Positions 53,068-60,698 of a stretch of 64,000 nt of DNA are shown piece after piece (the stretch's first letter is position 1; each line of letters opens with the position of its first letter). The position numbers were made by a program, and so were the translations under genes. Origin of the DNA: Mesorhizobium sp. (GTDB lineage Bacteria; Pseudomonadota; Alphaproteobacteria; Rhizobiales; Rhizobiaceae); NCBI RefSeq assembly GCF_016793485.1, contig NZ_JAEULZ010000046.1:186001-250000 (forward strand), in the 5' to 3' direction. The notes under the pieces are model-generated. The model did no database searches. It was not told the DNA's origin and saw nothing but the letters and a program-made list of their open reading frames with translations.

Positions 53068-53523
53068 CTATTCGTTGCCGATTCTGCCGGTTTCCAGCCC
53101 AAATCGTTCCCTGATGCGGGATTTCAGCCTGTCACGCATGTCGCGGTAGGCGTCGAGTACCTGTTCGCGCGAGCCCTGCGTGGCCGTCGGATCGACCGTC
53201 GGCCAGTATTCGACGTCGCTGGCGAGCGTGCGCGTCATGTCGAGCGCGGCATGGTGAGCTTCGGGTGAAAGCGTGACGATCAGGTCGAAATAATCATCCT
53301 CCAGCTCGTCCAGCGTGCGGGATCGGCGCTCCTGCGGTTCGAAGCCTTCTTCCGCCAGGATGACATCGACGAAAGGATCGGCTTCCCCCAACTGCACGCC
53401 GGCGGACGCGATGAAGATGGAGGGCGGCAGCAGATGCCGCGCCAGGCGCTCGGCGACAGGCGAGCGCACGGCATTGCGGCCGCAGACGAAGAGCATGGAA
53501 CGGGAGAGGGCGCTGTCCGTCAT
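53068..53523 (-). CDS. Low-molecular-weight protein tyrosine phosphatase-like protein
   Basis: 151 residues. The CX5R catalytic loop is Cys14-GRNAV-Arg20-Ser near the N-terminus ([15 protein letters not shown]), and the late aspartate lies in [10 protein letters not shown]. It could act as a phosphatase or arsenate-reductase relative. It overlaps the UPF0262 gene by 4 bp, so the two are coupled, and precedes infA. Confidence 0.9.
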
Positions 53524-59516: not shown

Positions 59517-59591
<75 letters not shown>

Positions 59592-59707: not shown

Positions 59708-59740
59708 AAAAAAACTTGGGCTGGCAACGCCAGCCCAAGT
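59708..59740 (-). terminator. Intrinsic terminator of the S74-like gene
   Basis: 12-bp perfect arms (59714-59725 and 59729-59740) around AAC; on the minus strand the stem is followed by seven T's. It lies 53 bp after the stop at 59793, so it ends that gene's transcript. Confidence 0.88.
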
Positions 59741-59792
59741 CGGTATATCGACCGCCCTAGTCGATGAGGTTCAGCTCGCCATCGCCTTTTGG

Positions 59793-60110
59793 CTAGTGGA
59801 CGCGCTTCATCTCGAGGCCGAGCATGCCGTAGTCGACAGCCATGAAACCCGAAGGCATGGTGACGACGGCTTCCGGCACTGCCTTGAGCACGTCCTGAGC
59901 CATCACGCCCTGATAGACTGCGTCGCTCCAGAAATACCTGAAATTGTAGAGTGGCAGGCCGTTCGAGGCGACCCCGACCTGCTCGATGTCCGACTTGAGC
60001 CGGATGTCGCTTGGGGCGACAATCTCACCATCGCTTACTTGCGTCTGCGCGGTAACCAGAGACAGCTTGCCCTTGGCATCCAGCGTCGGCTTTACGTATT
60101 TCCGTTTCAT
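59793..60110 (-). CDS. Mini-protein: lasso-leader-like N-terminus fused to S74-type chaperone/autoprotease domain
   Basis: 105 residues. Residues 5-20 (Tyr5, Pro8, Leu10, Gly14, Thr20) fit YxxPxLxxxGxxxxxT, the leader pattern of lasso peptide precursors. From about residue 34 it is a tail-fiber S74 domain: SDIRLKSDIEQVG, LPLYNFRYFWSD, YQGVMAQDVLKAVPEAV and DYGMLGLEMKRV. Ser34 and Lys39 have the S-x4-K spacing of the known autoproteolytic dyad, so self-cleavage could release a 33-residue peptide. GGGGAC precedes the ATG and a strong terminator follows, so it is a monocistronic gene. No lasso enzymes are nearby. Confidence 0.72.
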   Translation of the reverse strand: MKRKYVKPTLDAKGKLSLVTAQTQVSDGEIVAPSDIRLKSDIEQVGVASNGLPLYNFRYFWSDAVYQGVMAQDVLKAVPEAVVTMPSGFMAVDYGMLGLEMKRVH

Positions 60111-60151
60111 GACAAGTCCCCAAATGTTGCAACGCCAGTATTAGATTATTT

Positions 60152-60251: not shown

Positions 60252-60698
60252 ATGTCCGATATCACCATCCGGCCGCTGGCACAGGCCGACCACGCGGAAT
60301 GGCGGCGCCTCTGGACGGAGTATCTCGTCTTCTACAAGGCGACGGTTTCCGACGACGTCTATGCGGCGACGTGGCGGCGGTTGTTCGATACCGGGGAGTT
60401 CGAACCGAAGGGATTCATCGCGTTGCGCGAGGGCAAGGCGGTTGGGGTTGTCCACTACCTGTACCACCGGACATGCTGGTCCCTCGTCAACAATTGCTAC
60501 CTGCAGGACCTGTTCACAGACGAATCCGCGCGCGGCGCAGGCGTCGGCCAGGCGCTGATCGAGGCCGTGCAGGCCGAGGCGGGCAGAGTCGGCGTCACCA
60601 ACGTCTACTGGATGACGCATGAGACTAACGAGACGGCGCGACGTCTGTACGATCGCGTCGCCAAACGTACGGGGTTCATCGAATACGACCTGATGTGA
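60252..60698 (+). CDS. GNAT family N-acetyltransferase
   Basis: 148 residues. N-terminal ITIRPLAQADHAEWRRLW, then the acetyl-CoA site LQDLFTDESARGAGVGQALIEAV (R/Q-x-x-G-x-G/A), and the closing VYWMTHETNETARRLYDRVAKRTGF. The ATG follows GAGAGAGCG. It resembles small diamine or amino-acid acetyltransferases; the substrate is unknown. Confidence 0.9.
   Translation: MSDITIRPLAQADHAEWRRLWTEYLVFYKATVSDDVYAATWRRLFDTGEFEPKGFIALREGKAVGVVHYLYHRTCWSLVNNCYLQDLFTDESARGAGVGQALIEAVQAEAGRVGVTNVYWMTHETNETARRLYDRVAKRTGFIEYDLM

Follow-up and report, generated by a model that had tools for sequence, protein, structure and literature searches.

The Leader-S74 Gene and Its Neighborhood

The window, i.e., the complete stretch of 64,000 nucleotides that was analyzed, contains an intact gene for a protein of 105 amino acids in which a leader of the lasso peptide type precedes a short Peptidase_S74 domain (Table 1). 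Both the frame and the gene's own terminator had been given in a preliminary description of this DNA and were found as described. Nine neighboring open reading frames between positions 53068 and 63834 showed matches to LMWPc, DUF2948, RecQ domains, the EPSP_synthase family, GNAT, topoisomerase IB, Rrf2 and Polysacc_synt (the latter below the cut-off), whilst one was without match; none of the nine matched a phage head or tail family in PHROGs. In its own genome, the protein is the sole match to itself (E<=0.001), and this genome has one S74 match.

Table 1. Features of the leader-S74 gene and its flanks, with positions in the window.
Feature	Position	Strand	Evidence
Leader-S74 fusion gene, 105 aa	59793..60110	-	ORF call, Pfam match, congener comparison, substitution rates
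RiPP (lasso-type) leader, residues 1-21, MKRKYVKPTLDAKGKLSLVTA	60048..60110	-	Non-circular profile E=2e-5; genome search with leader profile; congener array
Putative core/linker, residues 22-33, QTQVSDGEIVAP	60012..60047	-	Position and length match S74-less core peptides; differs between congeners
Glu29, position 8 counted from Gln22	60024-60026	-	Core/linker stretch
Short-form S74 (intramolecular chaperone/autoprocessing) domain, residues 34-105	59796..60011	-	Pfam PF13884, phrog_6121, AF2 pLDDT, weak MyRF ICA 7dc3 matches
Ser34, putative dyad nucleophile and cleavage site (P33/S34)	60009..60011	-	Ser-Lys in 144/145 S74 frames; role from excerpts of PMC3742443
Lys39, putative dyad lysine	59994..59996	-	Ser-Lys in 144/145 frames; invariant alignment column
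Intrinsic terminator of the leader-S74 gene	59713..59741	-	13 pairs, 8 GC, T tail
Shine-Dalgarno-like GGGGA, 6 nt before ATG	60117..60121	-	Inferred from sequence
tRNA-Thr flanking the leader-S74 gene	59517-59591	+	
GNAT gene flanking the leader-S74 gene	60252-60698	+	

The homologue in a congener (G002) is 70% identical. It keeps Y-x-K-P-x-L-x3-G-x-LSLVTA in the leader and differs in residues 22-33. Synonymous change between the two proteins is near saturation; in the S74 part, dS is 2.05 and dN 0.12, in the leader, pS is 0.87 and pN 0.28, and pN reaches 0.58 in residues 22-33. Since synonymous sites are near saturation, the conservation of the leader and the S74 part points to constraint at the protein level, which, judged by these rates, is much weaker in residues 22-33.

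The Leader

The pattern YxxPxLxxxGxxxxxT that had been read in residues 5-20 is complete, with all its positions occupied (Y5-xx-P8-x-L10-xxx-G14-xxxxx-T20). Counting back from Ala21, Tyr, Pro, Leu and Thr are located at -17, -14, -12 and -2, which is the spacing reported for lasso leaders in excerpts of PMC10368454, i.e., YxxPxL at -17 to -12 and Thr at -2. The protein has both of these leader features of a lasso precursor. The NCBIfam lasso leader model did not match the window protein; the fusion protein of a genome from another alphaproteobacterial family (G831) scored 17.5 bits, below the cut-off of 19.

A non-circular profile, free of any fusion, was built from 11 S74-less leader peptides of two congeners (G001 and G002). 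Among 26,357 frames (2.03 million residues) from the fetched loci and the window, it found the leader of the window protein with E=2e-5, that of the G002 fusion with 1.7e-8, and those of two fusions in a more distant genome of the same order (G279) with 8e-4 and 0.05. In the same frames, the pattern YxxPxLxxxGxxxxxT matched 15 times, i.e., in 14 short leader-bearing frames and once by plain chance (L151). Since a leader or an S74 domain was the reason for choosing many of these loci, it is the single chance match in 2.03 million residues that is informative. With a 15-leader profile that had the window leader among its rows, at least one such leader was found in 8 of 201 genomes, including three of the four of the genus. 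A second, S74-less leader peptide is present in the own genome (G000:C9), although the match is weak (E=0.0025). On these comparisons, the window leader is a member of a RiPP leader family of the genus and no coincidence. The earlier alternative of a coincidental leader is contradicted by this family and by the recurrence of the fusion, which was found in three lineages and in two cases within a lasso-type cluster (see below).

The S74 Domain

The S74 domain that had been proposed for residues 34-105 was recovered by Pfam, in which Peptidase_S74 matches residues 34-82 with 30.9 bits (cut-off 22). The best phage family is phrog_6121 (75.7 bits), where residues 30-96 align with profile positions 320-386 of 392, and the best viral contigs are 54-63% identical to the S74 part. 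The best 20 of 61 phage records match this part, nine of them starting at residue 9-12 with 34-36% identity, and so do the best 20 of 73 plasmid records; Y5-P8 is covered by none of these phage and plasmid records. When the G831 protein was compared with plasmids, the best 30 of 68 matches started at residue 44-46, and none of these 30 reached the leader.

An AlphaFold2 model from a 32-row alignment has block mean pLDDT values of 89-95 from residue 31 on and below 50 for residues 1-28, as would be expected for a disordered leader ahead of a folded domain. A profile match to the MyRF ICA domain (7dc3) is weak (E=2.1e-4). With Foldseek, the model had no match in the PDB at E<=0.001, and protein kinases ranked highest, with E>=0.25; a second structural look (VIA) ranked the MyRF ICA first, tied with kinases.

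The Ser34-x4-Lys39 dyad seen earlier is present. It is kept in all seven leader-S74 fusions and in 144 of 145 S74 frames. These frames are distinct, with partial matches dropped, and come from loci most of which were chosen for their resemblance to S74, so that they are not a random sample. According to excerpts of two papers, the S74 domains of phage and MYRF cut before the Ser, and in MYRF trimerization via a C-terminal coiled coil is needed for cutting (PMC3742443, PMC8326128). The C-terminus is 72-84 residues beyond the Ser in six of the fusions and 123 residues beyond it in the second G279 copy; the window protein ends 72 residues after Ser34, at residue 105, and its model has no long C-terminal helix. 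Thus, as judged by length, the fusions lack the coiled coil that drives trimerization and cutting in MYRF. By analogy with the known domains, self-cleavage of the window protein is a serious possibility, if slightly the less probable outcome.

The order of the window also contains secreted proteins that carry S74 at their C-terminal end, several of them with Gly-rich linkers (L106, L108, L109, L116; L110, L111, L114, L118-L120). These proteins, which we take to be FecR-like or lipoprotein-like, represent another non-phage use of S74.

The Core Stretch

Glu is indeed located at position 8 of the presumed core, as noted before; in the congener fusion, by comparison, the acid is Asp9. A conserved acid at position 8 was not found in the order of the window, where it is present in 6 of 36 peptides, fusions included, and in 6 of 40 free cores. 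In the alphaproteobacterial family f64, the acid is at position 8 in eight of nine cores, including Asp8 in all three fusions, and at position 9 in the other.

The distance from the end of the leader to the Ser of S74 is 7, 11, 12 and 14 residues in the fusions of the window's order (presumably Hyphomicrobiales) and 16, 23 and 25 residues in those of f64. Free cores measure 7-26 residues in the order, with a median of 11 (n=35; adding two cores of L230, one each of L244 and L253 and two of L254 that were left out of this count, giving n=41, kept both median and range), and 16-24 residues in f64, with a median of 17 (n=6). In each lineage, the S74 domain, with its Ser, thus starts about where free core peptides end, which, with seven fusions, is suggestive.

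Candidate Maturation Genes

The preliminary description was right in stating that no lasso synthetase or protease is encoded nearby: within the 64-kb window, there was no match to PF13471 (E<=1), PF00733 or PqqD (E<=0.01). The search of the whole genome for lasso B and C genes that it proposed had a divided outcome, in that B2 and PqqD genes were found and a cyclase was not. The B2 protein, encoded on contig C46, scores 53 bits (NCBIfam lasso_biosyn_B2 cut-off 33). Five B2 proteins share invariant Cys and His columns, presumably their catalytic residues. PqqD-family genes are present on C13 and C21, so that the own genome has both B1 and B2. The own B2 and PqqD genes are on different contigs, and neither adjoins the leader-S74 gene or the other. 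No cyclase of the Asn-synthetase type was found in the genome at 1e-10; at E<=0.01, PF00733 gave two partial matches, which we take to be MnmA and ArgG.

On C13, PqqD, HprK-like and NTP_transf_5 genes lie together; the kinase label, HprK-like, here and below rests on matches below curated cut-offs. The same locus (L219, 2817-8423) encodes PP-binding (ACP-like), GNAT and AMP-binding ligase proteins beside them, and neither a leader peptide nor B2 was seen there. The second PqqD-family gene, on C21 (L220, 3925-6219), shares its contig with the window and lies 52 kb before it, beside genes that presumably encode an NTase and glycosyltransferases.

More complete clusters were found in related genomes. 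In G002, a stretch of about 7.2 kb contains genes for PqqD and B2 (lasso_biosyn_B2, 58.4 bits, cut-off 33), for an HprK-like protein that scores below cut-offs, for ten leader peptides, and for an AMP-binding ligase and NTP_transf_5. This locus (L217, 7307-14466 on C1), with its ten tandem leader peptides, is a RiPP-type cluster without a cyclase, and the AMP-binding ligase might act in place of one. In G001, the PqqD and B2 genes are adjacent. The remaining congener (G003), with neither a fusion nor a leader match, is the only one without B2 of eight chosen genomes, all the others of which were picked for having a leader. In G279, one of the two leader-S74 copies is located beside PqqD, B2, HprK-like and NTP_transf_5 genes. 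In this genome, three tandem leader-only peptides are also followed by a 517-residue frame without Pfam match (L257, 3686-5955 on C171). In G001, a leader-only peptide is encoded 18 nt before an Asn synthetase gene (L222, 5776-7818 on C84); its product was rejected as a lasso cyclase, since it passes the asparagine synthase model with 370.9 bits (cut-off 267.1), i.e., it is an ordinary asparagine synthase.

Recurrence and Origin of the Fusion

Leader and S74 are fused in three lineages, i.e., in the genus of the window (two genomes), in G279 (two copies) and in family f64 (three genomes, G831, G653 and G1099). The search of other Rhizobiales that had been suggested earlier showed that the congener protein and both G279 proteins keep the leader and the Ser-Lys dyad. 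Among 397 genomes of the order, 62 contained a match, and three of 78 rows, the own protein and the two of G279, align over the leader columns. Of 385 genomes of the class, 18 matched, with a leader in three of 25 rows (own, G831 and G653), and 15 of 298 genomes of f64 matched, with 16 rows representing three fusions, six S74-less precursors with the same leader and seven S74 matches in longer frames lacking it; in these last two surveys, long S74 frames were read from the C-terminal end only. The congener copy is located in a gene neighborhood different from that in the window.

In G831, the fusion gene overlaps by 4 nt the end of a gene for a cyclase-like protein of 635 amino acids; methyltransferase, HprK-like and PqqD genes come after the fusion. 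The best NCBIfam match of the cyclase-like protein is lasso cyclase, at 328.6 bits and below the cut-off of 525. B2 was not found inside this cluster; it is encoded 1.3 Mb away on the same contig. In G1099, PqqD, the fusion, Asn_synthase and B2 are encoded across 4.1 kb. In both G831 and G1099, the fusion takes the place of the precursor in a lasso-type cluster that encodes a cyclase-like Asn synthetase. In G653, B2, Asn_synthase, an S74-less precursor and PqqD lie together and the fusion is about 0.2 Mb away; clusters of this kind, again with S74-less precursors, were recognized in G997 and G751 by reading the sequence alone.

Fused leaders are at least as close to S74-less leaders of their own lineage as to those of other lineages (22 compared; one G279 fusion, G279a, ties at 12/17). 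On a tree of 77 S74 domains (68 columns), three changes were counted (bootstrap 5-95% range 3-3, for a bootstrap that had not settled). These results suggest that the fusion probably arose repeatedly, and we go no further than that, because an AU test does not reject a single clade of fusions (p 0.08).

Proposed Maturation and Alternative Explanations

The window gene probably encodes a lasso-type RiPP precursor with a captured phage-type S74 domain as its C-terminal "follower". Sequence relations, gene neighborhoods, conservation and the dyad were observed, and from here on we infer the processing steps. By analogy with published lasso work (excerpts of PMC10368454 and PMC8498205), the leader (residues 1-21) would be bound by a PqqD-like B1 protein, and the transglutaminase-fold B2 protease would cut after Ala21. 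The HprK-like kinase (a weak match) and the nucleotidyltransferase that are encoded with PqqD may decorate residues 22-33; their genes suggest that phosphate or sugar is placed there. The S74 domain would assemble and hold the core and, if active, cut before Ser34, thereby freeing the C-terminus of the core. A lasso peptide is the probable product in f64, where a cyclase-like Asn synthetase and an Asp8 core accompany the architecture. Since no cyclase was found in the genome of the window, a linear (phospho/glyco-)peptide or a peptide retained on S74 is more likely there, and the genes found make a lasso ring unlikely. The release of a small peptide, one of the options considered at the outset, is compatible with the kept dyad and with a Ser close to where the core naturally ends, but this S74 is of the short form that lacks the trimerizing C-terminal helix. 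A wider proposal, which we put forward tentatively and with some doubt, is that alphaproteobacteria, probably more than once, have appended a self-cleaving phage S74 domain to the end of lasso-type precursors, so that the core would be set by two cuts, one by B2 and one by S74 autoproteolysis.

Alternatively, B1 and B2 may remove the leader and expose a (decorated) N-terminal peptide that is kept on the S74 domain or its oligomer, without any self-cut. The short-form S74 lacks the trimerizing helix known from MYRF, the core stretch is variable where S74 is conserved, and S74 is C-terminal on secreted proteins of the order as well, all of which would suit such display. However, conservation of the dyad in 7/7 fusions and the location of the Ser near the natural core end in three lineages argue against it, and we consider permanent display unlikely, though it is the strongest competitor of the follower reading. 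A further option is that a formerly useful precursor lost its cluster and is now functionless. The sparse occurrence of the leader (8/201 genomes), the different neighborhood of the congener copy, the missing cyclase and the separation of the gene from any maturation gene found would fit decay, but dN far below dS in S74, the conserved leader, the intact frame, the SD-like site and the terminator do not, which makes decay quite improbable. Least credible of all is a tail-fiber fragment of a phage with an N-terminus that resembles a lasso leader by chance. While phrog_6121 and the viral contigs show that the S74 part is phage-like, chance is opposed by the non-circular E-value and the single chance match to the pattern, by leader-only peptides in the own genome and the genus, and by seven fusions across three lineages; moreover, the genome has one S74 match, and the nine neighboring frames lack phage head and tail families.

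Relation to Known Systems and Implications

The follower reading places the protein next to lasso precursors of the paeninodin, pseudomycoidin and BsfA type, which come with split B1/B2, a kinase and a nucleotidyltransferase. According to excerpts of PMC10368454 and PMC8498205, these have the same YxxPxL and Thr positions and, like the systems described here, genes for PqqD-like B1, B2, HprK-like and NTase proteins. Unlike these, the window protein has a 72-residue S74 domain after the core, no cyclase was found in its genome, and its order lacks a conserved ring acid. With the S74/ICA domains of phage tailspikes and MYRF, it shares the Pfam match, the Ser-Lys dyad and an N-terminal cargo ending at the Ser (excerpts of PMC3742443). 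Its cargo, however, is a RiPP leader and core of 33 residues rather than a beta-helical fiber or a transcription factor, and a C-terminal coiled coil is absent. With the virion structural proteins of phrog_6121, the best phage family, only about the last 70 of the 392 profile positions are common.

In agreement with the earlier impression that the two parts had not been described together, our searches of the open PMC literature yielded no study in which a lasso or RiPP precursor is combined with S74, tail fiber or endosialidase. PMC10040529 was rejected as a precedent, since in its excerpts the lasso and S74 words occur separately, in a list of genes and in the title of a cited work, and PMC11118758, on RiPPs and phages, contains neither S74 nor tail fiber. 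Within this literature, an S74 follower would be a newly described variant of lasso-type precursors.

If S74 cuts, it would offer a new way to define the C-terminus of a RiPP core, as well as a lasso precursor that is naturally fused to a protein, with uses in displaying and releasing lasso peptides. Otherwise, leader-S74 proteins would be natural RiPP-protein conjugates. If the two-cut proposal is true, S74 is a self-removing follower that could time or localize maturation. The finding also draws attention to the B1-B2-kinase-like-NTase systems of Rhizobiaceae, which have arrays of precursors and lack an adjacent cyclase.
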